IMG/VR virus record: IMGVR_UViG_3300008262_000836
Location: 1-22,241 of that record
Strand: one strand, 5' to 3'
Origin: a virus
Length of the DNA: 22,241 nt
Under the pieces are notes generated by a model, which saw only the letters and a program-made list of their open reading frames with translations, had not been told where the DNA came from and did no database searches. Shown piece after piece: positions 4,368-19,312 of this stretch (within the stretch, counting starts at the first letter, position 1; the number at the start of each line of letters is the position of its first letter). Both the position numbers and the translations under genes were made by a program.

Positions 4368-5084
4368 TCACGTATTTAGCAGATAGAACTGCTCAACCCG
4401 GCGCCACCATAAATCTCTATATTTGTCGTACTCACTGCCCTCTAGTACAAACTCTTGATATTCTGGGGGTTTAATGATGTTGAATTGTTCATCTACATCG
4501 GGTTTCACGCACATGAGAATCACACCCTTACGTATGCGTGTGCCATGCACTTCATTGTGTGCTTCTGCATAGGCGCACAATTGCACAAAATAGTCCTCAA
4601 TCCATTCACGACGTTTAGGCTTGTTGCTTTGCTTGTAGTCTAGAATGGCTTCTTCATTCAAATGAATCCCAGCGCCATCTGTTGTGCCTGCATAGATCCC
4701 GGGAAAGTATAGTGGAACTTCAATGCCCCAAAATTCATTCACATTCTTCAAACCCTTTTCCACCACTACATGTGCCATGGCATGACTGGCCCAGCTGTAA
4801 GGATTTGTAGTGCGTTCTTTGATTTCACCTGTCTTTACATAGTCCTCAAGATAGGTGTGCATGCGTGTGCCGCGGTTGGCAGCTTCGGTGGTGATTTGTT
4901 GTGCTTTTTCTGCACCCACGCTGCGTCTCCATCGATTCAGTGCTTCTCGACTTTCTTCGCTTTTGGTCTTGTCAAGTATTGTGGTAACTGAAGGTAAGTT
5001 TTTGCCATCTGGTGTGGAGTAAAAACGTTTGCCTTCAACTACTACTCGGGGAATGGGTTGGTAATCAAATTTAGGATTGTACAT
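4368..5084 (-). CDS. PD-(D/E)XK nuclease, RecB/Cas4-like exonuclease family
   Basis: A 238-residue predicted nuclease. The core motifs are visible in order: a conserved His in RGTRMHTYLE (H76), GTTDGAG with D136, ILDYKQS with D149 and K151 (the D-x-K part of PD-(D/E)XK), and QLCAY at 168-172, matching the QxxxY motif that follows the core in RecB-like enzymes. These residues bind Mg2+ and cut DNA. Its probable role is phage recombination, DNA processing or host DNA degradation; the exact substrate is not visible. It is the last gene of the Fe-S/radical SAM operon and overlaps the radical SAM gene before it by 14 bases. The ATG at 5084 is chosen; a TTG one codon earlier is less likely. A CTAAATA box for the tailspike lies in its last codons. 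Confidence 0.82.
   Translation of the reverse strand: MYNPKFDYQPIPRVVVEGKRFYSTPDGKNLPSVTTILDKTKSEESREALNRWRRSVGAEKAQQITTEAANRGTRMHTYLEDYVKTGEIKERTTNPYSWASHAMAHVVVEKGLKNVNEFWGIEVPLYFPGIYAGTTDGAGIHLNEEAILDYKQSNKPKRREWIEDYFVQLCAYAEAHNEVHGTRIRKGVILMCVKPDVDEQFNIIKPPEYQEFVLEGSEYDKYRDLWWRRVEQFYLLNT
4373..4379 (-). promoter_or_regulatory. Late-promoter-like CTAAATA box before the tailspike
   Basis: GCTAAATACG on the minus strand ends 22 bases before the tailspike GTG. The same box occurs at a similar distance before other virion-type genes in this window. It overlaps the last codons of the upstream nuclease gene. By analogy with the T4 late box TATAAATA read by gp55, I call it a late promoter. Confidence 0.5.
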
Positions 5085-6471
5085 CAAGTTTCTTAAAGAA
5101 TGCCACCCGGTGAGTTATTTCTTGAGAGAATTGTTTTTCTATATCAATATCATTGGTCATGATATCTATCAATTCTTTGTCAGGGGCATCTAGTAGATTA
5201 TACAGTCTTTCGTTGAGCATAGCAAATGATTGGTCAGTCTTTTTGTCAAAATAGGCATTATGGCTTAGAAATTTTAACCATTGTTCATGACTTTCGGGCA
5301 TGTTCTTTAATTCTTCAATTGTGGAACTTATAAAATTAAAAAGCATTCGAGTCTGATTGGGATATTTCCTAAAGATTTTGTGTTCTAAACAGGTTTGTAA
5401 AAATTTAATCAATGTTGCTCGATATCGTATGGGTAGAGCCTCAATGTCAAGATGTTGTGTGCGGTCAATCAAATTAATAGGTTGAATGGGAAATGAATAA
5501 TGCTGTTGATCAAACCAAGCTGACCAATAGGTCATAAATTCATCAATGTACATGATGTTGTTGAGACTAAACACTGGCGTAATCAAACAACGCCATCTGG
5601 GAGTGTATGTTTTCTTTCCAGACACAATACTCAAAGTGTTTTGATGGCTCATCAGTGTGGCCAAGTTGTTTTCAATCTTTTCAAATTTAGCCGGCCAACG
5701 TAGATATTGATAATTGTCGCCCACTGAGTCAATGCTTAAATTGATATCTACATCTCTGAACTGTGACATCTTGCTCATGAGATCGTATCCTGGACGTACT
5801 GACAGTGCAGTGGTCACACGCAGATGCACACGCGGGGCAATGCCTTGAGCGATCATCCAGTTCAAGAGTTTTTTCATGCCTGGCTGCACAAGACTTTCCC
5901 CGCCAATGAAATGCACATAAAAATGCTCTACCTTGGGCAATTTTTCTAATATGGTGGTGGTAATCAATTCCCAGTGTTCTGGACTTGTACTAATATCTAT
6001 TTCATACTGTTCGCTCACAGGAGTATTGGTTATTCTGGCCCAGGTTGAGCTTTCTGTTTCAGTGCAACTTCTGCAGGCTAGATTACAAAAGTTACTGAAT
6101 TTGACCCGCAGTTCAAACTCAGGAAGTGTTTGTTTTTCTACAAAACTCTTCAATCTATCTTCAATGTATCCTAGAAATCCATTCACACGCTCGCTAGCAC
6201 CACCGTGGTCTTCCTCAGACTTACAGCGCCAGCATGCTTCGGGCCATTGTTCATTTAACTGTTGCTCTTTGATATCAGCAAATGGATCAGCGCCTGCACT
6301 TGGCACAAATGTTCTGTCGTCAAGACTGCAACAACAGGTTTTAAACACAGGTTCTGAACTGAATTCAGAATAACGTGTGTCTAGTGTGACATAGGGATAT
6401 ATGCACAGTGTGGGATTTTGTTCTGCCCACAACAGGCGTTGGTCTACAGACTTTTTCAGTGTGTCGGTCAT
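5071..6471 (-). CDS. Radical SAM protein, twitch type with N-terminal cysteine cluster
   Basis: A 466-residue radical SAM enzyme. The CX3CX2C motif that binds the SAM-cleaving [4Fe-4S] cluster is C129-C133-C136 (FCNLACRSC). GGESLVQPG at about 200 fits the GGE SAM-binding motif. An N-terminal segment has C23, C46-C48 (KTCCCSLDD) and C80/C83 (CWRCKSEED). This CC plus CxxC arrangement is seen in twitch-type phage radical SAM proteins and probably holds an auxiliary cluster. The substrate is unknown; such enzymes often modify peptides or proteins. The ATG at 6471 overlaps the iscA TGA (ATGA), and the 3' end overlaps the nuclease gene by 14 bases. Placement directly after iscA suggests its product receives clusters from it (inference). 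It is the same broad type as the gene at 16458-17648. Confidence 0.88.
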   Translation of the reverse strand: MTDTLKKSVDQRLLWAEQNPTLCIYPYVTLDTRYSEFSSEPVFKTCCCSLDDRTFVPSAGADPFADIKEQQLNEQWPEACWRCKSEEDHGGASERVNGFLGYIEDRLKSFVEKQTLPEFELRVKFSNFCNLACRSCTETESSTWARITNTPVSEQYEIDISTSPEHWELITTTILEKLPKVEHFYVHFIGGESLVQPGMKKLLNWMIAQGIAPRVHLRVTTALSVRPGYDLMSKMSQFRDVDINLSIDSVGDNYQYLRWPAKFEKIENNLATLMSHQNTLSIVSGKKTYTPRWRCLITPVFSLNNIMYIDEFMTYWSAWFDQQHYSFPIQPINLIDRTQHLDIEALPIRYRATLIKFLQTCLEHKIFRKYPNQTRMLFNFISSTIEELKNMPESHEQWLKFLSHNAYFDKKTDQSFAMLNERLYNLLDAPDKELIDIMTNDIDIEKQFSQEITHRVAFFKKLDVQS

Positions 6472-6788
6472 ACTCTAAAACTTTCTCCGCAACCGCAACG
6501 GTCACGTTCATTGGGATTGCGAAATTCAAATCCTTCATTTAGGCCGTTGCGCACAAAGTCCACAGTTACACCTTGCAAATAAGCACAACTCTTGGGATCT
6601 ACATATATTTGACATCCTGCACATTCAAAACATTGATCTTCTGCTTTGGGTGCGTCAACATATTCCAACACATAAGCCAGTCCTGAACAGCCTGTGGTTC
6701 TCACACCCAGTCTGATGCCCACACCGTGCCCGCGACGAGTCAGTGTTTGTTGTATTTTTCTAGCGGCTATTTCAGTTAAGGATACCAT
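6468..6788 (-). CDS. iscA: A-type iron-sulfur carrier protein (IscA/SufA/HesB family) with four extra cysteines
   Basis: A 106-residue A-type carrier, close to E. coli IscA length (107). It has the family's three cluster-binding cysteines: C34 in TTGCSGLAYVLEY, and C98 and C100 in CGCGESF. The NEGFEFRNPN segment before CGC is also typical. A-type proteins accept Fe-S clusters from IscU and pass them to apo-enzymes. Unusually, four more cysteines are present: C53-C56-C59 (CFECAGC, a CX2CX2C run) and C68 (KSCAYL), at positions where E. coli IscA has non-cysteine residues. The start MVSLTEIAA at 6788 matches the family N-terminus; an earlier ATG at 6815 would add a non-conserved MQYILFKEI. It overlaps the radical SAM gene upstream by 13 bases and the one downstream by ATGA. 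Confidence 0.92.
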   Translation of the reverse strand: MVSLTEIAARKIQQTLTRRGHGVGIRLGVRTTGCSGLAYVLEYVDAPKAEDQCFECAGCQIYVDPKSCAYLQGVTVDFVRNGLNEGFEFRNPNERDRCGCGESFRV

Positions 6789-7771
6789 GATTTCTTTGAA
6801 CAATATGTATTGCAAGCAGTCAACTGCTTGCCGGTATCAAATGTATCTATTATACGATTGAACCAGTCAATACCTTTTTCCAAGGTGTTAATTTCCGTTG
6901 ACCCTTGCAGTTGATGCACATCATTCACATAAGTAGCAGTTGATTTGCTAAAGTTTCCAATAAAACAGCAAGGATCTATTGTGCCATCGGCAGCAATATA
7001 CATACTTATCGGTCCCCAGTCGTGTAATGCTTTGCATCTGACTTCATTGTGGGGTACTGCTGGTAAATTACGAGCCCCGTGCCGATTGATCCATTCTTTT
7101 GTGATTTGGTCTGGATACGTTGTACCGGTGTCTTTTTTAAGTTCGAATACTTTTTGTCCGTTTTGATTGTATACCGGACCCCAGTTTCGACCATGATTTC
7201 TCAACTTGAATTTTCCAAAACCCAGTTGTTCACTGCGCCTGCGAGCTTCATCAATTTGATGACGATTGTGATCAAATTCAGTCATGCACCAATCTGCTCG
7301 ACCTCCTGCGGCAATAAAATATTCTGCGTTACGGATCACTGTTTCGTACAAGGTATTCTGTCTATACAGGTGATGTGTATCTTCTAAGCCGTCAATACAA
7401 AACTGTATTTCTACATCGATGGCAGCCAGTTTCTGCCAGAACTCCCGCCCTTGTGCACCCCCATTGGTAAATGCAGTAATGTCCAAGGGCTTTTGTCCTG
7501 CACGACCGTGTTGTCTAAACCAGGCCAGAATGTCCGGAGTTTCTGGGTTCATAACCAAATCTCCGAGGTTTCCGTTTATCAACACACAATCCAATTGCGC
7601 CACCACAAACTCAGGCACAATTTGTTTGATTTTATCCAGGGAGAGATTCAGTTCTTCATACCCAAAGTTATAAGGAAACCCGTGATAGTTCCGTAAGCAC
7701 ATTGGACATCTGGCATTGCACAATGAACTGATTTCTATTTGTAGCTCTCGTATGTCGTTGATACTAACCAT
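6776..7771 (-). CDS. Radical SAM protein with SPASM/twitch-like C-terminus (paralogue 2)
   Basis: A 331-residue radical SAM enzyme. C18-C22-C25 (SSLCNARCPMC) is the CX3CX2C cluster motif at the very N-terminus. A conserved core contains FCIDGLEDTHHLYRQNT. Near the C-terminus, CKALHDWGP...ADGTIDPCC fits the C-x(n)-G-x4-C start of SPASM/twitch auxiliary cluster domains, and CNTYC is near the end. It is a tandem paralogue of the gene at 7771-8745, alike over its whole length, with near-identical runs such as TEFDHNRHQIDEAR. The start at 7771 is chosen because it aligns with the paralogue, has AGGA four bases upstream, and overlaps the paralogue's stop as TAATG. An ATG at 7786 would add MRPGL inside the upstream gene. 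The substrate is unknown. Confidence 0.9.
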   Translation of the reverse strand: MVSINDIRELQIEISSLCNARCPMCLRNYHGFPYNFGYEELNLSLDKIKQIVPEFVVAQLDCVLINGNLGDLVMNPETPDILAWFRQHGRAGQKPLDITAFTNGGAQGREFWQKLAAIDVEIQFCIDGLEDTHHLYRQNTLYETVIRNAEYFIAAGGRADWCMTEFDHNRHQIDEARRRSEQLGFGKFKLRNHGRNWGPVYNQNGQKVFELKKDTGTTYPDQITKEWINRHGARNLPAVPHNEVRCKALHDWGPISMYIAADGTIDPCCFIGNFSKSTATYVNDVHQLQGSTEINTLEKGIDWFNRIIDTFDTGKQLTACNTYCSKKSWYP

Positions 7772-8745
7772 TAATCCTGGCCGCAATATATGTTACAAAT
7801 ATTCAATTGACCATCAGTTCCAAAGGTGTCTATCACACGATTAAACCAGGCAACGTTTTTTTCTAATGTATCTATATTTTCTCTTCGCAACAAAGATAAA
7901 TCATTTTGATTCCAGTTGTTGCTGGGCTTGGTATAGTTACCAATCAAACAACAAGGGTCTAGTGTACCATCAGCGGCAATGTACACACTTACAGGCCACA
8001 CAGTCAATGCTTCGCAGGTGATTTTTTTATGAGGTATAACTTTAGGATTGCGATCTTGCTGATTTACCCATTCGGTTGTGATCTGGTCAGGCAACTGATA
8101 TCCATTAGCAGTTTCTTGTTTGAGTACAAACACTTTTTTTCCATGCTGATCATACACAGGTCCCGAGTCTCTTCCGGTATAACGTGTGAAGAATCTATCA
8201 AACCCCAGTTTTGTACTACGCTCACGTGCTTCGTCAATTTGATGCCGATTGTGATCAAATTCAGTCATACACCAATGAGCACGGCCGCCGGCAGCCATGT
8301 AATAACCAGCGTTGCGTATCACTGTTTCGTATAGCGTATTTTGTCTGTACAAGTGATGTGTGTCTTCAAGTCCGTCAATACAGAAATTTATGTCTAAGTC
8401 AAGTGCTCCAAGTGCTTCCCAGAATTCACGTCCGCGAGCACCCCCATTGGTAAACACATCTATTTTAAAATTCTGATGTCCGTGTTCACGAAACCAAGCT
8501 AGAATTTCTGGCGTTTCGGGATTCATTAACATGTCGCCATAATCGCCATTGACCATCAAATGATCCAGTTGCGCTACTACCGACTCGGGAACAATTTCTT
8601 TAAGTCGAGCTAGTGAAAGATCTGTCTCTGCATAGCCAGTGTTGTGGGGGAATCCGTGAAAATTTCTAATGCACAAGGGGCATCTTGCATTGCATCGTGA
8701 GCTCAACTCAATATTGATTTCTCGTATGTCATCAATGCTAATCAT
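7771..8745 (-). CDS. Radical SAM protein with SPASM/twitch-like C-terminus (paralogue 1)
   Basis: A 324-residue radical SAM enzyme. C18-C22-C25 (SSRCNARCPLC) binds the catalytic [4Fe-4S] cluster. The C-terminal CEALTVWPV...ADGTLDPCC and CNIYC cysteines (C317, C321) fit a shortened SPASM or twitch auxiliary cluster domain. Its ATG follows the iscU TGA with no gap (TGAATG), and its stop overlaps the next paralogue, so the three genes are probably co-translated. The N-terminal SSRCNARCPLCIRN type resembles radical SAM families that modify peptides or proteins, but no precursor peptide is evident. A third, more divergent copy is at 18278-19312. Being directly behind iscU suggests dependence on phage-supplied cluster assembly (inference). 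Confidence 0.9.
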   Translation of the reverse strand: MISIDDIREINIELSSRCNARCPLCIRNFHGFPHNTGYAETDLSLARLKEIVPESVVAQLDHLMVNGDYGDMLMNPETPEILAWFREHGHQNFKIDVFTNGGARGREFWEALGALDLDINFCIDGLEDTHHLYRQNTLYETVIRNAGYYMAAGGRAHWCMTEFDHNRHQIDEARERSTKLGFDRFFTRYTGRDSGPVYDQHGKKVFVLKQETANGYQLPDQITTEWVNQQDRNPKVIPHKKITCEALTVWPVSVYIAADGTLDPCCLIGNYTKPSNNWNQNDLSLLRRENIDTLEKNVAWFNRVIDTFGTDGQLNICNIYCGQD

Positions 8746-9057
8746 TCAATGTCGTTTCCTGTAGTCTTCTACTGCGGCCTTGATTGCGTCCTCTGCTAGT
8801 ATTGAACAGTGAATCTTAACAGGAGGTAATGCTAGTTCTTCGGCGATTTCGCTGTTTTTGAGTTGACTGGCTTGGTCGATGTGCATGCCCTTGACCCACT
8901 CCGTAACAAGGCTTGAGCTCGCAATAGCCGATCCGCAGCCATACGTTTTAAAACGTGCATCTGTAATAATACCTGTATCATGGTCAACCTTTATCTGTAG
9001 TTTCATTACGTCGCCGCAAGCAGGTGCGCCAACCATACCAGTACCAATATCAGTATC
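8746..9057 (-). CDS. iscU: Fe-S cluster assembly scaffold IscU, N-terminus missing
   Basis: 103 residues of IscU, on which nascent [2Fe-2S] clusters are built from IscS sulfur. All three ligand cysteines are present: GAPACGD, YGCGSAIASSS and KIHCSILAEDA. The LPPVK motif bound by the chaperone HscA is also intact, so the protein could plug into the host HscA/HscB system. Similarity to beta/gammaproteobacterial IscU is extremely high, suggesting acquisition from a host. IscU normally has about 128 residues; the first 25 or so (the HYENPRNVGS region) are absent. Upstream of DTDIGTGM the sequence is the His-rich gene in another frame. The frame stays open to an ATG at 9162, but that stretch is not IscU. 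An ATG at 9036 could give a 96-aa product. Either the junction is a deletion or the gene is truncated. Confidence 0.85.
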   Translation of the reverse strand, partial: DTDIGTGMVGAPACGDVMKLQIKVDHDTGIITDARFKTYGCGSAIASSSLVTEWVKGMHIDQASQLKNSEIAEELALPPVKIHCSILAEDAIKAAVEDYRKRH

Positions 9058-9224
9058 ACAATAACAGCACCTACTACTCCGCCAATGATTAATGGTGCAA
9101 CCCAGCCACTGTGTCCGTAGTATCTGGCATGTCCATGATGACCGTGGTGGCCATGTCGCCAATGTTGTGCTAGAGCAGGCACAGTGACCATTAACAATGC
9201 TAGTGAAATTAAGATCTTTTTCAT
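9006..9224 (-). CDS. His-rich exported small protein, 3' end fused out of frame into iscU
   Basis: A 72-residue reading frame starting MKKILISLALLMVTVPALAQ, a textbook Sec signal peptide with an AxA site. Residues 21-38 hold eight histidines (HWRHGHHGHHGHARYYGHS), followed by a Gly-rich hydrophobic segment, WVAPLIIGGVVGAVIV. Residues after about 56 (ILILVLVWLAHLL) are iscU DNA read in the wrong frame, so the natural C-terminus is probably lost. The chance hydrophobic run would nonetheless make a long membrane segment. A periplasmic metal-binding or membrane role is suggested by composition only. It is the first gene of the Fe-S/radical SAM operon, with AAAGGAG at 9231-9237 and a strong promoter close upstream. 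Small His/Gly proteins like this are common in proteobacteria and some of their phages; I cannot name the family. Confidence 0.65.
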   Translation of the reverse strand: MKKILISLALLMVTVPALAQHWRHGHHGHHGHARYYGHSGWVAPLIIGGVVGAVIVILILVLVWLAHLLAAT

Positions 9225-9242: not shown

Positions 9243-9271
9243 ATTATACTATATATAACGCCTAAAGTCAA
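9243..9271 (-). promoter_or_regulatory. Near-consensus sigma-70 promoter of the Fe-S/radical SAM operon
   Basis: On the minus strand TTGACT (9271-9266) and TATAAT (9248-9243) are separated by exactly 17 bases, five of six and six of six matches to the sigma-70 consensus. The predicted start of transcription is near 9236, giving a leader of about 12 bases that begins at the ribosome binding site. This differs from the CTAAATA-type boxes of the virion genes and implies reading by host RNA polymerase, probably early in infection. Confidence 0.75.
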
Positions 9272-9291: not shown

Positions 9292-9651
9292 TTAAACGCC
9301 GCGGGATTTGTTCATTGCCGATTTGGCAGCATTGGCCACTATGTCTTGTGCTTTGTTCACAGGCATAGCAACCGGTTCGGCAGGTTCGCCTTCACCTTTG
9401 AATATGATTTCTTGTGCTTCTGGGGTCATGGGTTCTAGCACTGAACTCAAGGGAGGTTGTCCCACAATCTCTTCAATGTTGTCTTCGGTCACATTGATAC
9501 CCAGACTTTGTGCAAGACTGATAAATGCACCTCGAGAAATTTGTTTTTGTGCGCCTTCGTCGTCAGCACGGCCAGCAAGAAAATTGACCAGCCCTAACAG
9601 TTCATCGGGGCTGGGTGTTGTGGATTCCGTTATGAATTCACGGAATCGCAT
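9292..9651 (-). CDS. Virion-type protein with capsid-targeting-like N-terminus
   Basis: A 119-residue acidic protein of unknown function, starting MRFREFITE. This strongly resembles the capsid targeting sequence of T4 internal head proteins (MKTYQEFIAE), which the gp21 protease cuts after [LI]xE. The remainder (DELLGLVNFLAGRADDEGAQ, then SRGAFISLAQSLGINVTEDN) looks helical, and the last third is Pro/Ala-rich. Its ATG at 9651 overlaps a TAA at 9653 (TAATG) that would be the natural stop of the upstream gene once that gene's frameshift is corrected. It is the last gene of the late block. A role as an internal head protein or packaging component is inference. Confidence 0.7.
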   Translation of the reverse strand: MRFREFITESTTPSPDELLGLVNFLAGRADDEGAQKQISRGAFISLAQSLGINVTEDNIEEIVGQPPLSSVLEPMTPEAQEIIFKGEGEPAEPVAMPVNKAQDIVANAAKSAMNKSRGV

Positions 9652-11208: not shown

Positions 11209-11637
11209 TCATTTATTTATGGGTTCAAACCAAATGTTCTGATCCGGGCCGTCAGTTACCAGTGTGTATTGAGTTGTGAGTGTTTCAGTAAGCCCTGTGA
11301 GCATGGGTACTCCTGCGCACTCTGCAATCAGTCCTGACAGGTCAGTGTTGTAGACTTCGGCATGCTCTACAGAGAATTCAAAACGCCATTCTCCAGGAGC
11401 ACTGATCACTGGCTCTACATCAAATACCTGTGTGCGCAGGCTGATCAACTGGTTCAGTGTTTCCCAGTTGCGCTGTTGATTCCTGGCAAACATCCAGGCA
11501 TTTTGATTTTCAATTGTGTTGCCTGCACCATCCTGAAACGGCACTTGGCTGGGTCTATAGTGTCCCGTGACACCAGTGGCCGAAACCAGCAGCTTGTGTG
11601 CTGGCATTGCCGAAAGCGCCTGTTGGGTATGTAGCAA
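11209..11637 (-). CDS. Phage structural-type protein, 5' end disrupted
   Basis: The reading frame is open from an ATG at 11637, but the first 17 or so residues lie over the preceding gene in another frame and look non-native. Coherent protein sequence begins around VTGHYRPSQVPFQDGAGN, then NQQRNWETLNQLISLRTQVF, and ends in FEPINK. The segments GHYRPSQVPF and QQRNWETLNQ recall small tail or structural proteins of marine T4-like phages; I cannot give a precise role. There is no ribosome binding site at 11637. Either the start of this gene was deleted together with the end of the 11555-11899 gene, or both are halves of one protein split by an indel near 11588. It ends in a TGA that overlaps the promoter box of the membrane gene. 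Confidence 0.6.
   Translation of the reverse strand: MLHTQQALSAMPAHKLLVSATGVTGHYRPSQVPFQDGAGNTIENQNAWMFARNQQRNWETLNQLISLRTQVFDVEPVISAPGEWRFEFSVEHAEVYNTDLSGLIAECAGVPMLTGLTETLTTQYTLVTDGPDQNIWFEPINK
11214..11221 (-). promoter_or_regulatory. NATAAATA late-promoter-like box
   Basis: CATAAATA on the minus strand, 17 bases before the ATG at 11196 and overlapping the last codons of the gene upstream. It matches seven of eight bases of the T4 late box TATAAATA and fits the NATAAATA form described for marine T4-like phages. Confidence 0.45.
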
Positions 11638-14860: not shown

Positions 14861-16477
14861 ATGACCAGTCAAATCAATCCATCAAATATCGATGCTACAT
14901 ATCCTGTAGCAGGGCAACCCAATAACACACAGGGTTTCCGCGATAATTTCACTGCCACACAGACCAATTTCAACTATGCCGCAACTGAAATAACAGATTT
15001 ACAAAACAAAGCAGTACTAAAGGCAGCACTCACAGGCACCACGTTGGACAACAACATGAATGATGCACTGCTTTATGCTGCCAAGATACAAGATTTTAGC
15101 GCAACTGCGGTGAATCTTACAACCACTTCGGGACCAGTCACAGTGGATTATACCACCGGACATTATCAAAGACTGGCACCGTCCACTGGCAGTGTGAGTT
15201 TGGGTTTTGTGAAATGGCCACCCAGTGGTAGTTATGGTTATCTTAAATTGCAAATTGTTGTTACCAATACTGCTTACACAGTGACATTGCCTGCGTCTGT
15301 GACACTTGGTGTCACTGGTATACAAGGATATTCGGGCGGAGTTATTACATTTGCTGCCACAGGCACATATGAATTTGGATTTGGTACTAGCGATGGTGGA
15401 ACCACAATCACTGTGTTTGATTTAAATCGTCCGTTAAGTACATTTTCTGGTCCAGTGAATATCACAGCCAACACAGTGAGTACCAGCACTACCACAGGTG
15501 CATTAACAGTTGCTGGCGGTGTAGGTATTGTGGGCAACATAAACATTGGCGGTAATTTAAAGACTTATACCAGCTCAGGCAATGTGGCGTTTCAGGCTCT
15601 GGACACTGGCATTGTGGAATTTAGAACTCCTGCCCTGATCCCGGCCAACACCGCTGGTGCACTAAACATTGTGGGCAGCGCCGATGGTTCGTATCAGCCA
15701 GTATACAACACTGGAAGCATGGTGCATGTGACAGGCAATGATGGTGTGTCATGCAGAACCACACTTGACACATTTGGAACCGGCGCTGCCGTTCAGTCAT
15801 CACTGGTAATGCGATTAGCTCGCGGCACAGCGGCCGCGCCAACAGCAGTGCAGTCTGGTGATATTTTAGCACGAATAACTGGTTCAGGATTTGGCAACGC
15901 CAGTGGCTATGTGTTGGCCGCAGGCAACATTGGAACCTTGGGTATTGACTTTGTTTCCTTGGAAAACTACACCACTGCCAACGCAGGCAGTGCTTTGAAG
16001 TTTTACACCTCGCCTGTTGGCGCTGTTACCAAAACACTCAGCGCCAACATCACTGCCAATGTGAGTACATTCCCAAGTATATCAAGCACAGGCAACGTTC
16101 TTACCAGTGCAGGTAATGTGCTAATCACAGGCGGCTTGGGAGGAGTGGGGTATACTAATGGTGCTGGTGGTGCGGTTGTGCAGACTGGTAACAAAGGTGG
16201 TGGCGTTGGACTCAACAAACAGTCTGGTGAGATCACCATGCAAAACACCAACTTGGCTGCAGACACTATAGTAAGTTTTGTATTGACCAACACCACAATT
16301 GGTGCAAATGATTTATTAGTATTACAGCATCAGAGTGGTGGCACACTGGGTGCGTACACTCTCAATGCCTCTTGTGCAGCAGGTAGTGCCACAATATATG
16401 TTAGAAACAATACTGCTGGTACACTTGGCGAAGCATTGGTCATACGCTATGCTGTGATCAAAGGTGCTGTTGCCTAA
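14861..16477 (+). CDS. Fibre-like structural protein
   Basis: A 538-residue Gly/Thr/Ser/Ala-rich protein with few charged residues, typical of phage fibres. The N-terminal segment (QINPSNIDATYPVAGQPNNT, then QGFRDNFTATQTNFNYAATE) resembles the conserved head of fibre or baseplate-attached proteins in marine T4-like phages. The middle has TTTGALTVAGGVGIVGNINI, a beta-repeat motif common in fibre shafts. The C-terminus (YTLNASCAAGSATIYVRNNT) looks like a compact beta domain. It is one of only two plus-strand genes in the window, with its own late-type box, a good AAGGA site, and a terminator 30 bases after its stop. Its last 20 bases overlap the convergent radical SAM gene. Receptor binding or virion decoration is likely. 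Confidence 0.78.
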   Translation: MTSQINPSNIDATYPVAGQPNNTQGFRDNFTATQTNFNYAATEITDLQNKAVLKAALTGTTLDNNMNDALLYAAKIQDFSATAVNLTTTSGPVTVDYTTGHYQRLAPSTGSVSLGFVKWPPSGSYGYLKLQIVVTNTAYTVTLPASVTLGVTGIQGYSGGVITFAATGTYEFGFGTSDGGTTITVFDLNRPLSTFSGPVNITANTVSTSTTTGALTVAGGVGIVGNINIGGNLKTYTSSGNVAFQALDTGIVEFRTPALIPANTAGALNIVGSADGSYQPVYNTGSMVHVTGNDGVSCRTTLDTFGTGAAVQSSLVMRLARGTAAAPTAVQSGDILARITGSGFGNASGYVLAAGNIGTLGIDFVSLENYTTANAGSALKFYTSPVGAVTKTLSANITANVSTFPSISSTGNVLTSAGNVLITGGLGGVGYTNGAGGAVVQTGNKGGGVGLNKQSGEITMQNTNLAADTIVSFVLTNTTIGANDLLVLQHQSGGTLGAYTLNASCAAGSATIYVRNNTAGTLGEALVIRYAVIKGAVA

Positions 16478-17648
16478 TTAATTTGTAAAATTCAGGAAAC
16501 GTAGAGGCTAGATCTTGTTTGCGCAACAGGTCTAGCTTTTTTGTTGTGCTCCAAAACTTTGCCCATAACTCGGGTTGATTGTCTAGTGGCATGTCCATGA
16601 AGTCTAGTATGCTAGCAACTTGATGTCCGGCTCCTGCAAGATGTGTTCTAACTTGTGCTTTGACTAGATCAGGCAACACCCGCACATTGATATGTTGTGG
16701 ATGATGCACCATGTTAAAGAAGTAGCCTATACCACGCTGTTTAAAATACTGTTCAATGTCTTGAATGTACCAGATGTTGTAGGCACACACAGTTACACAA
16801 ACGCACATGCTGATATTAGGGTGTTTGCGTACTAGTTCTTGATAGCGATCCAGATTCTTTTCTACTGTACTCCAAGTTTCTCCATAGCGTATGTAATCAA
16901 AGTGCGGGCCAATACCATCTACACTGATATCTAGTGCCACATGTTTGAATTGGGTCAATGTATCAATGTATCGTTGATTCCAAATTGTACCATTGGTATT
17001 GATGTGCAGACTTTGTTCATGTGCTAGATTTTTATCCACAGCCTGTTTCAAGATGTCAAACACATTACTCAACAGCATGGGCTCAGCACCATAGATGTCA
17101 TAGTATTTGACATCAGTCAACCAGGACTCAAGTTCTGTCCATAATCTAGTGTTTTCGGGTTCGTAACTACTCTTAATTCTTCCCCAGCTGGCCAGATACT
17201 TTTTGTAGTCAGGTTCTTGCTTGTGTGCTTCTAGTTCCCAATAGTCACGATACCATTTGCTTGACACTTCGGGCCAGCATGTTCTACAGGCCAGGTTACA
17301 GGTGTTTCCAGGTTTGAGATCAACCAGCTGTGGACGATGTGCGTTTTGTGGCAGGTACTTGAACTGCTGATTGGCCACAAGTCTTCGACTGCTACGTCCG
17401 GCATTTTCTTCTGCCCAGCAAGCACTACAGTTAGGGTGCTGAATGCCTGCATCTAGGTCTGCTTGTATCTGTTGTCTAGTAGGACTAGTCCATGCATCCT
17501 GCAATGTGTTGACGTCAAGGTACAAGTCTTGTTGATTGTTGTCCTGTAGGTATGTTTGGCTGTGACAACACAACAGGCATCTGCCCGAATTGTGTAATGC
17601 AATGCCTGAATCTGCCCAGGCGCAATATAATGTTGACTCTTGTTTCAT
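16458..17648 (-). CDS. Radical SAM protein, twitch type with N-terminal cysteine cluster
   Basis: A 396-residue radical SAM enzyme. C117-C121-C124 (TCNLACRTC) is the catalytic CX3CX2C. LHINTNGT follows at a normal distance, and LDISVDGIG matches a conserved core strand. N-terminal cysteines C9, C24, C27/C28 and C74/C77 (NCSACWAEE) have the same layout as in the 5071-6471 protein, suggesting an auxiliary cluster. The substrate is unknown. It is divergent to the 2OG oxygenase gene: the two ATGs are only nine bases apart if 17658 is used, so the promoter must lie within coding sequence. Its 3' end overlaps the fibre gene stop by 20 bases and contains that gene's terminator on the other strand. 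I see no clear ribosome binding site before the ATG at 17648. Confidence 0.87.
   Translation of the reverse strand: MKQESTLYCAWADSGIALHNSGRCLLCCHSQTYLQDNNQQDLYLDVNTLQDAWTSPTRQQIQADLDAGIQHPNCSACWAEENAGRSSRRLVANQQFKYLPQNAHRPQLVDLKPGNTCNLACRTCWPEVSSKWYRDYWELEAHKQEPDYKKYLASWGRIKSSYEPENTRLWTELESWLTDVKYYDIYGAEPMLLSNVFDILKQAVDKNLAHEQSLHINTNGTIWNQRYIDTLTQFKHVALDISVDGIGPHFDYIRYGETWSTVEKNLDRYQELVRKHPNISMCVCVTVCAYNIWYIQDIEQYFKQRGIGYFFNMVHHPQHINVRVLPDLVKAQVRTHLAGAGHQVASILDFMDMPLDNQPELWAKFWSTTKKLDLLRKQDLASTFPEFYKLIRQQHL
16507..16542 (+). terminator. Rho-independent terminator of the fibre-like gene
   Basis: GCTAGATCT pairs with GGTCTAGC plus one base (nine pairs including one G-T). A one-base bulge and three more pairs then close a five-base loop, TGCGC, followed directly by TTTTTT at 16537-16542. 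It is oriented for the plus-strand gene ending at 16477. It lies wholly inside the antisense coding sequence of the convergent radical SAM gene, where it encodes KKLDLLRKQDLA. Confidence 0.8.
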
Positions 17649-17657
17649 GTTGTAAAT

Positions 17658-18323
17658 ATGTATATGGAAACTACCCTCAACACTAAATTCATTGGTATTC
17701 GACGCTTTGTAAGCGAACTAAAATTAGAGTTACCATTTGAGCGAGCGCAGATTATCCAGGAACTTGATGACGAAGCGTGGGTGCCGCACGGAGACGTTGC
17801 TCCTGTGGGACACAATCCTTGGCCCAACACACGCTACAAGTGTCTGCGCCCGCAATGGAAGCATAAAGCACTCACTGCCGTCAGTAGATACTTTGGCAGC
17901 GTAGAATTCAAGCGTCAAGCCATTGACTGGATGTATCAAGAGTACCACGGTATTGATGTTACTTGGGGTATGGGTGCTGATGAAATGTGCCGTAAATCAA
18001 GAACACACATTGAGTTTACCAAAGACATGCCTGGCTTTGTTAACGACATACACACAGATTATCGTCAACTGATTGCCACAGGTATGATTTATTTCAGCGA
18101 TCACGACACTCCAGATCTAAGTTCTTATTTTTACACTGATCAAAATCGCAGTAATCCCACACGCATTACAACTGCATTTGGAGATGGATGGTGGCACATG
18201 AACAACTACGATACCTGGCACGAGGGATGGAATCGCACTGATCAAGTGAGATACAGTGGGCTATTGGGCTTGACTATCTACACCGCCGACTTGCCTGAAG
18301 ACGATCCACAATTCCCACACTGA
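17658..18323 (+). CDS. 2-oxoglutarate/Fe(II)-dependent oxygenase
   Basis: A 221-residue predicted dioxygenase. The metal-binding facial triad is visible as H132-x-D134 (NDIHTDYRQ) and H188 (DTWHEGW). R198 (QVRYSGLLGLTIY) follows at the spacing expected for binding 2-oxoglutarate. ATGMIYFSD after the first motif is a typical core strand. Such enzymes hydroxylate proteins, nucleic acids or small molecules and are frequent in T4-like phage genomes; the substrate here is not evident. The ATG at 17658 is chosen; ATG 17664 is also possible, and neither has a clear ribosome binding site. A TTG at 17640 would overlap the divergent gene. The last 46 bases overlap the convergent radical SAM gene. It stands between two radical SAM genes, so this segment is dense in iron enzymes. 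Confidence 0.82.
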   Translation: MYMETTLNTKFIGIRRFVSELKLELPFERAQIIQELDDEAWVPHGDVAPVGHNPWPNTRYKCLRPQWKHKALTAVSRYFGSVEFKRQAIDWMYQEYHGIDVTWGMGADEMCRKSRTHIEFTKDMPGFVNDIHTDYRQLIATGMIYFSDHDTPDLSSYFYTDQNRSNPTRITTAFGDGWWHMNNYDTWHEGWNRTDQVRYSGLLGLTIYTADLPEDDPQFPH

Positions 18324-19312
18324 CGATTGCATATAACCAAGCGTCCTTGATCAAACTCAGGGATAGACCAGGTTTTTTCAATTTCCTCAAACCAAGCCAT
18401 ACACGCTTCCAAACTGTGTTCTATAGCATTGTTAAAACCAATCATGTGTGAGAACTGTGCATTGGCAGCATCGTGCCAGGCACCTCGTCCAAATGTTTTT
18501 GGTTCAAATCCAAGATAGCAACAAGGATACACATCTCCTGTGCTGGACACATAGATTGATTTTTTCTTTTCAACTTCACATGCAATAGGTTGCGGAGTTT
18601 GCCCTTGTGTGATTTCTTCAAATGTAGTTGACCCATTGATCCGTCGATTTAACATGTCATCAAAACTGCTGTACCACTCCGGCTGTTGACCAATAAAGTG
18701 CGTGAGTTTTCCTTTGCGGTCAAACACAGGCCCGACATTTCTGCCATAGTCCATGAGCTGGAAACGTTTAAATCCCATGCTCTCGCTAAGTTCACGTGCT
18801 GTCTGTTGCTGATGACGGTTGTGATCAAAGTCAATCATACGCCAAGTAGCATGCCCTCCCGCATCAATAAATGCTCGAGCATTTCGAATCACTGTGCTGT
18901 ACACAGTATTTTGTCTGTACAGGCTGTGTGTATCTTCTAGGCCATCAATGCAGAAAAACACACAGACATCAAGTTCAGCAAGCCTTTGCCAGAAGTCTGC
19001 GCCACGTGCTCCGCCATTGGTGCTGATACCTACGTGTATACGTGATGAATGCGATTGAAAATATTCGATTATATCAATAGTCTCTGTATTCATTACTGCA
19101 TCGCCAAAGTTACCATTGATATACAATTCATCTAGCTGTTGAATAAATTTAGGTTGAAAAATGCGTTGCGCATCTTCAAGTGTTAAGTCGCGCTCAGTGT
19201 ACCCATTGTTGTATGGGTATCCGAAGAAACTTCTAGGGCACAATGGACAATTTGCATTGCACCTACTAGAAATTTCCAAATGTACATGACGTATTTGGTC
19301 AAATGCGTACAT
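18278..19312 (-). CDS. Radical SAM protein with SPASM-like C-terminus (paralogue 3)
   Basis: A 344-residue radical SAM enzyme of the same subfamily as the tandem pair at 6776-8745. It has C18-C22-C25 (SSRCNANCPLC) at identical positions, the core FCIDGLEDTHSLYRQNTVY, and DFDHNRHQ. The C-terminal CEVEKKKSIYVSSTGDVYPCC fits CX(9-15)GX4C of SPASM domains. The final CNRQCGNCG adds an extra CxxC not present in the tandem pair, so the auxiliary cluster may be more complete. Its ATG overlaps the helicase TAA (TAATG), meaning it is translationally coupled to the replicative helicase and probably expressed with replication genes. The 3' end overlaps the convergent oxygenase by 46 bases. The substrate is unknown. 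Confidence 0.88.
   Translation of the reverse strand: MYAFDQIRHVHLEISSRCNANCPLCPRSFFGYPYNNGYTERDLTLEDAQRIFQPKFIQQLDELYINGNFGDAVMNTETIDIIEYFQSHSSRIHVGISTNGGARGADFWQRLAELDVCVFFCIDGLEDTHSLYRQNTVYSTVIRNARAFIDAGGHATWRMIDFDHNRHQQQTARELSESMGFKRFQLMDYGRNVGPVFDRKGKLTHFIGQQPEWYSSFDDMLNRRINGSTTFEEITQGQTPQPIACEVEKKKSIYVSSTGDVYPCCYLGFEPKTFGRGAWHDAANAQFSHMIGFNNAIEHSLEACMAWFEEIEKTWSIPEFDQGRLVICNRQCGNCGSSSGKSAV

Follow-up and report, generated by a model that had tools for sequence, protein, structure and literature searches.

A conserved iscU–iscA operon beside radical SAM genes in a probable jumbo phage lineage

Why should a phage keep genes for an Fe-S cluster scaffold and an Fe-S carrier among genes for radical S-adenosylmethionine (SAM) enzymes? 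The question is raised by the IMG/VR virus record IMGVR_UViG_3300008262_000836, a fragment of 22,241 bases that contains no N and was analysed in its entirety (the window). Seven consecutive, tightly packed open reading frames (ORFs) on its minus strand, at 4368–9224, encode in the order of transcription a His-rich exported small protein, IscU, the radical SAM proteins rSAM3 and rSAM2, IscA, rSAM1 and a PD-(D/E)XK exonuclease; this run, reported in a preliminary description of the DNA, is confirmed from the ORFs. The window probably comes from a jumbo phage, because its replicative helicase finds its best isolated-phage match in Pseudomonas phage PA5oct (48%) and the longest of its close relatives, the record G001, measures 320 kb (320,175 bases). 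The operon is real, conserved and under selection. We put at even chances the proposal that its scaffold/carrier pair tops up the cluster supply for phage radical SAM enzymes, using the host's IscS, HscBA and Fdx.

Conservation of the iscU–iscA unit

The genes of the run abut or overlap one another. rSAM3 (7771–8745) starts at ATG 8745, immediately after the stop of iscU (8746–9057, truncated at its 5' end and read from codon 24), and rSAM2 (6776–7771), from its ATG at 7771, shares 1 nt with the rSAM3 stop. The iscA gene (6468–6788) begins at ATG 6788 with an overlap of 13 nt with rSAM2, rSAM1 (5071–6471) begins at ATG 6471 with an overlap of 4 nt with iscA, and the exonuclease gene (4368–5084) begins at ATG 5084, overlapping rSAM1 by 14 nt. 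A tail-spike-like gene and then nrdA follow, both named by reading the sequence. Ahead of the unit, on the same strand at 9271–9243, lies the sigma-70-type promoter sequence TTGACT-17-TATAAT, which agrees with the consensus at 11 of 12 positions and is identical in five relatives (L002–L006).

Related loci were sampled through the exonuclease, with the isc genes disregarded, and the best 80 of 548 were used, so that the sample consists of close relatives. In 70 of them, termed spanning loci, the upstream core gene (ORF 9292–9651 of the window) and the exonuclease are both present. All 70 contain iscU and all 70 contain iscA, and the gene order is violated in 0/80 loci. Comparison of 11 gene pairs drawn from iscU, iscA, rSAM1–3 and the exonuclease yields dN/dS values of 0.07–0.18 for nine, the other two being saturated, which indicates that these genes are retained by purifying selection. 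A second set of 80 loci was sampled through iscU; here 59 have the start of iscA no more than 50 bases downstream, and another 4 have it within 1.5 kb.

In 55 of the 70 spanning loci the upstream core gene is followed by a promoter-like site with at most 2 mismatches of 12, against 3.2 expected from single-base shuffling; because the loci are related, this count is not to be read as a probability. The same scan after 13 other core genes finds no site for nine and 1/39, 1/65 and 5/75 for three; the highest count among them is that after iscA (9/78 loci, 4.5 expected). That so many loci (55/70) have the site ahead of iscU supports transcription by host RNA polymerase and a unit starting at this point. 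The operon proposed in the preliminary description is supported to this extent: iscU and iscA stay paired across relatives, probably within a single transcription unit, and radical SAM genes frequently accompany them, in phages rich in such genes.

Radical SAM genes beside the pair and across the genomes

Inserts in the sampled loci (extra ORFs of at least 90 aa, near-copies included) were called as radical SAM with a profile built from the window proteins. By this profile, 31 of the 70 spanning loci carry one to three radical SAM ORFs beside the pair. Of the inserts, 30 of 47 in the iscU–iscA gap and 26 of 35 in the iscA–exonuclease gap are radical SAM ORFs. The site before iscU contains 1 among 48, most of its inserts being the His-rich gene or its like, and the 13 remaining gaps hold 22 extra ORFs, none of them radical SAM. 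These are minimum values, since the profile missed a 581-aa insert in one profile-negative locus (L162) that Pfam identifies as an rSAM-B12 protein. When inserts from iscU to the exonuclease are grouped into families, the excess is modest (9/25 at 50% identity, 6/21 at 35%); G001 overall has 22 radical SAM genes among 313 ORFs. Ten profile-negative inserts were checked against Pfam: five have no match and two more have sub-cut-off matches only. Among the other cargo at the sites adjacent to the pair are genes for a GNAT acetyltransferase and for a 2OG-Fe(II) oxygenase. In G001 itself (locus L088, 6499–7305), an SGNH-type-hydrolase-like ORF with no Pfam match replaces rSAM3 between iscU and rSAM2.

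A second variable slot lies beside the helicase (50 loci) and comprises 10 radical SAM families of 18. By ORF, the radical SAM share is 29/82 there and 56/82 at the iscU–exonuclease site; without one 40-member family that is probably the fibre gene, the helicase slot would stand at 29/42. This slot is also rich in radical SAM genes, which makes at least two such slots, the iscU/iscA neighbourhood being one. The three radical SAM enzymes that the preliminary description saw in the run are supported, and the list is incomplete for the window: rSAM4 (16458–17648), the second gene of the twitch type, which occupies a different variable slot, and rSAM5 (18278–19312), both on the minus strand, bring the total to five radical SAM genes plus IscA.

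Eight distinct records longer than 200 kb occur among the matches listed, six of them reached through the exonuclease or the helicase with no regard to isc and two (G039 and G040) drawn from the iscU search. NifU_N is represented once and the A-type family twice in each of them, with 12–21 PF04055 matches (G001 21, G015 16, G027 12, G033 17, G039 13, G040 19, G046 12 and G047 13). G040 probably represents another lineage, as its exonuclease is absent. A tblastn search of G001 with E. coli IscS, HscA, HscB, Fdx, IscR and IscX returns no match (320,000 of the 320,175 bases), Fer2 (PF00111) is found in 0/8 of the large records, and the IscS family (aminotransferase-V, PF00266) exceeds its cut-off in none of the eight, with one weak, stop-containing match. 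The locus can thus not be called the self-contained module that had been proposed.

The most likely of the explanations considered, and one for which we see the chances as balanced, is that the pair supplies clusters to phage enzymes. In a lineage of jumbo phages with relatives of 200–350 kb, a host-type sigma-70 promoter would drive iscU and iscA, and the neighbouring slots would have received radical SAM genes. Phage IscU would take sulfur from host IscS, host HscB/HscA and ferredoxin would release the clusters from it, and phage IscA would pass them on, or convert them to [4Fe-4S], for many phage radical SAM enzymes. The clients would be the 12–21 enzymes of each large record, including those co-translated in the operon. 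We infer the cluster transfer, the preference for phage radical SAM clients and the time of expression. If true, the joining of cofactor assembly to the dependent enzymes in one conserved operon would mean that a viral programme can be limited by its supply of metallo-cofactors, and it would offer a tractable test of A-type carriers choosing their clients by co-expression. An extended version, which we consider unlikely, makes IscU and two A-type carriers a private Fe-S supply line, expressed from a host-type promoter, that loads a rapidly changing set of 12–21 radical SAM enzymes; the slots beside the supply genes would act as a landing site where new cluster-dependent enzymes arrive, and the enzymes together would yield a modification or small product specific to the phage.

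A number of observations weigh against supply for phage enzymes. By the profile, the pair stands without an adjacent radical SAM gene in 39 of the 70 spanning loci, and such genes also gather in the helicase slot. In the iscU-sampled set, 8 of the 71 loci with room (2 kb) have no iscA downstream (9 lack room). Some partial records that bear isc genes have few radical SAM genes in view of their length (three records of 104, 114 and 130 kb with 3, 2 and 3, respectively), and 7 of 45 records, all shorter than 45 kb, have none. Across the window as a whole, the promoter scan finds 9 sites with 11.6 expected, hence no enrichment. The one record seen with the exonuclease that has lost both isc genes is G048 (88 kb, sampled via the helicase), in which the site is taken by two different genes that read as acetyltransferase-like and deaminase-like. 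No PF04055 match occurs in its 88 kb; this joint absence counts in favour of supply for phage enzymes and is only suggestive, because the 7/45 records are likewise devoid of radical SAM genes and three records of 104–130 kb have 2–3. A further record, G057 (32 kb), has neither isc gene and is uninformative because its exonuclease is absent too.

The separation of iscU/iscA from radical SAM genes in relatives had been named in the preliminary description as the outcome that would count against it. The result is mixed, the 39 loci without such a neighbour standing beside 31 with one to three, and at genome scale each of the eight records above 200 kb has its 12–21 enzymes somewhere. The strong form of the idea, a dedicated supply-plus-consumer operon, is rejected on the 39/70 loci and the second slot. 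The same observations suit a different explanation, in which the pair supports host Fe-S metabolism or repairs clusters damaged by infection, and the radical SAM genes are unrelated cargo in permissive slots that also receive the acetyltransferase and the oxygenase; the partial records with few radical SAM genes fit it as well. It has to face the eight large records, every one of them heavily loaded, and no long isc-bearing record with few radical SAM genes was seen. We regard host support as possible, if rather unlikely.

Beyond this lineage the association loosens. Eleven comparison phages were assembled, six via the helicase search, K566 and F379 via radical SAM proteins, two huge uncultured phages via iscA and C48C1 via iscU; the last five are not a neutral sample. 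PA5oct, XaC1, 2.275.O and SCTP-2 have none of the NifU_N, A-type and PF04055 families, and C48C1 has a NifU-like (IscU) gene and one radical SAM gene. Two kinds of record add to the evidence against supply for phage enzymes: radical SAM genes occur without isc genes in Atu_ph07 (4), Phosso (4), K566 (6) and F379 (11), and the two huge phages have one A-type gene and no radical SAM gene. The coupling of isc and radical SAM genes, consistent in the lineage, becomes loose in other phages. F379 (L272) is an isolated Campylobacter phage of 183 kb, and its 11 PF04055 matches are accompanied by neither IscU nor an A-type carrier.

Phages of this sort lend some weight to the proposal that the block is simply inherited, an ancestor having captured iscU–iscA while the radical SAM expansion had a separate cause. 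A tree of 194 IscU sequences, built from few columns of a short alignment and with many open forks, points the same way: it places phage IscU largely apart from bacterial IscU, with 3 label changes, and neither shows nor rules out a single origin. Against a block with no functional tie stand strong purifying selection and the fact that iscU and iscA are both kept downstream of a promoter-like site that is itself conserved, and we judge this proposal improbable.

The truncated iscU of the window

The iscU copy of the window is not intact. Relative to L002–L006 and G001, the six relatives that align cleanly there and are all intact, 206 bp are missing at 9058/9059; the other compared relatives reaching this position are without the His-rich gene or rearranged there. 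L002 is 99.9% identical to the window on each side of the join. This gap takes away the last part of the His-rich gene together with iscU codons 1–23, shifts the frame, and fuses the His-rich ORF to IscU codon 24. The His-rich exported protein noted earlier does exist as a minus-strand ORF of 72 aa (9006–9224), and its own sequence covers only about 9059–9224; the C-terminal part is iscU read in a shifted frame. The window IscU ORF matches NifU_N from profile position 22 onward only (positions 22–123; E 3e-43, 147.4 bits vs a Pfam cut-off of 22). Because its first 23 residues are missing, it scores 177.9 bits with TIGR01999, under the cut-off of 192.4; this score applies to the window copy, and relatives were judged by full length, an intact IscU being read in L002 and L003.

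Three further gaps separate the window from its relatives. The first, of 83 bp at 1310, appears against 5/5 spanning relatives and splits nrdA into two frames. The second, of 91 bp at 2255, appears against 4/5, the fifth (L071) showing a net 40 inside a long unaligned stretch. The third, of 187 bp at 11582/11583, was compared in 12 relatives where the gap is narrow: 11 show 187–196 bp, and the remaining one, L167, breaks at the same place with no net excess. Four gaps within 22 kb, in a sequence that is near-identical elsewhere, favour an assembly fault, which is the most likely source of the iscU truncation in this contig. The truncation could instead be a real allele, leaving the operon of this phage without a working scaffold. 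The contig has no N, no word common to both ends at 9058/9059 exceeds 6 bp, so that reads probably span the join, and L167 also departs from the rest at 11582/11583. Set against this are the three additional gaps (83, 91 and 187 bp), one of them breaking nrdA, in comparison with relatives up to 99.9% identical, and a junction 28-mer that every other viral contig of the collection lacks. A real allele is therefore very improbable in our estimate.

The four internal gaps may affect other findings made on the window contig. A separate observation concerns L002 (2997–3374) and L004–L006: the iscU of L002 and L003 groups with other contigs than does that of L005 despite close flanks, and iscU alleles may have been swapped by recombination.

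The encoded proteins and known systems

The window IscU retains the ACGD, YGCG, LPPVK and HC motifs. These comprise the Cys, Asp and His ligand region and the LPPVK segment. Among 121 distinct near-full-length phage IscU sequences, ACGD is kept in 120, and YGCG, LPPVK and KIHCS are kept in all 121, so the earlier remark on LPPVK stands although the window gene is interrupted. The A-type carrier matches PF01521 (E 1.5e-18) and exceeds the NCBIfam IscA cut-off (TIGR02011, 152 vs 150.6 bits), in agreement with its first identification as IscA.

All five radical SAM proteins of the window have the CX3CX2C motif and a PF04055 match (E 6e-9 to 4e-5), with only rSAM4 over the curated cut-off of 29.5 bits (36.8) and rSAM1, 2, 3 and 5 at 24–28; E values for the operon proteins rSAM1–3 run from 4e-6 to 4e-5, also under that cut-off. 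The twitch radical SAM family NF033640 (cut-off 170 bits) takes in rSAM1 (188.9) and rSAM4 (282.8) and leaves out rSAM2 and rSAM3 (35) and rSAM5 (26). Accordingly, rSAM1 is assigned by NF033640, as an N-terminal-twitch protein, and rSAM3 by its fold, PF04055 being under cut-off in both. rSAM3 has the motif CNARCPLC, a PF04055 E value of 4e-5 and a SPASM/twitch-like C-terminus; rSAM2 (E 9e-6) is its paralogue at 64% identity, and the related, SPASM-like rSAM5 (42% identical to rSAM3) matches PF04055 (E 2.7e-6) and PF13186, both under cut-off.

The nearest folds to the rSAM3 model (pLDDT 79.7) are SuiB, SkfB, MoaA and BlsE (Z 16.0–16.7); with anSME included, these enzymes align over the length of the model at Z 15.0–16.7, and viperins follow at about 14. 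We take SuiB, SkfB, MoaA, BlsE and anSME to form the SPASM/twitch group. rSAM3 resembles them in the fold of its model and in conserved further C-terminal Cys residues, and differs in being only 13–18% identical. The rSAM1 model (pLDDT 89.5) has weak matches in the PDB (best E 1.2e-5, TM 0.35). In alignments, the rSAM2/3/5 family adds five further invariant C-terminal Cys to CX3CX2C, and the rSAM1 type has seven invariant Cys, four of them before the radical SAM motif, which would fit a second cluster. Given these extra residues in both types, each enzyme may need more than one cluster. A tblastn search of isolated phages links rSAM3 to three Campylobacter records (27%) and rSAM1 to two Vibrio records (24%).

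The exonuclease falls just under the Pfam PDDEXK_1 cut-off (21.1 vs 22) and matches the exonuclease family phrog_298 (E 7e-53). Fe-S nucleases of the Cas4/AddB type have four cluster-binding Cys. The window protein has 2 Cys, and just two Cys columns are conserved across 81/81 sequences including that of the window, so its proposed place among the Fe-S consumers is rejected. Since the gene also occurs in isolated jumbo relatives that are without isc genes (6/6), the exonuclease is a core phage gene and lies outside the Fe-S module. Membership of the His-rich protein in the module is not supported either, a weak homologue (45%, E 2e-4) being kept in G048, which has no iscU or iscA.

The nearest bacterial IscU proteins among the matches listed are mostly from Comamonadaceae such as Rhodoferax (up to 87%), and 66 of 80 bacterial IscU loci among those matches show the order iscR-S-U-A-hscB-hscA-fdx. 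A host of Comamonadaceae type could thus supply the rest of the isc system, and a Comamonadaceae-like host is our guess. Both the phage locus and the bacterial operon have iscU ahead of iscA, with homologous products; the phage locus differs in having radical SAM genes between and after them, and the 320-kb relative in having no match to the six other proteins searched. The 14 iscU matches from the isolated-phage search include bacterial-looking records, and the one Acinetobacter record inspected has a complete isc operon beside housekeeping genes.

The general idea of phage suppliers plus phage users, which is the core of the preliminary description, is already in print. According to Nishimura et al. 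(2017, PMC5332604), T4-like environmental phage genomes carry A-type and/or IscU genes together with up to 12 radical SAM genes, and the assembly proteins are proposed to serve phage as well as host proteins. An IscU or A-type gene with several radical SAM genes in one genome is likewise found in 8/8 records above 200 kb and in the window. In contrast to the present lineage, theirs are marine genomes in which six IscU group with Gammaproteobacteria, and their section on Fe-S genes has no shared operon, promoter or radical SAM hotspot. The terms looked for are absent from a jumbo-phage overview (Iyer 2021, PMC7824862), and the literature searched, with most subscription papers outside reach, yielded no description of the conserved operon, promoter or hotspot. 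The conserved operon and the hotspot therefore seem to be new.

Two neighbourhoods of radical SAM genes away from the pair complete the picture. In the window, ORF 17640–18323 beside rSAM4 and rSAM5 has no Pfam match and reads like a 2OG-Fe(II) oxygenase, which is a guess. In G001, the stretch 95001–115000 (L435) contains seven plus-strand and one minus-strand radical SAM genes within about 15 kb; a Pfam check of seven neighbours identifies a carbamoyltransferase only, and together with it the stretch looks like a phage biosynthetic cluster.

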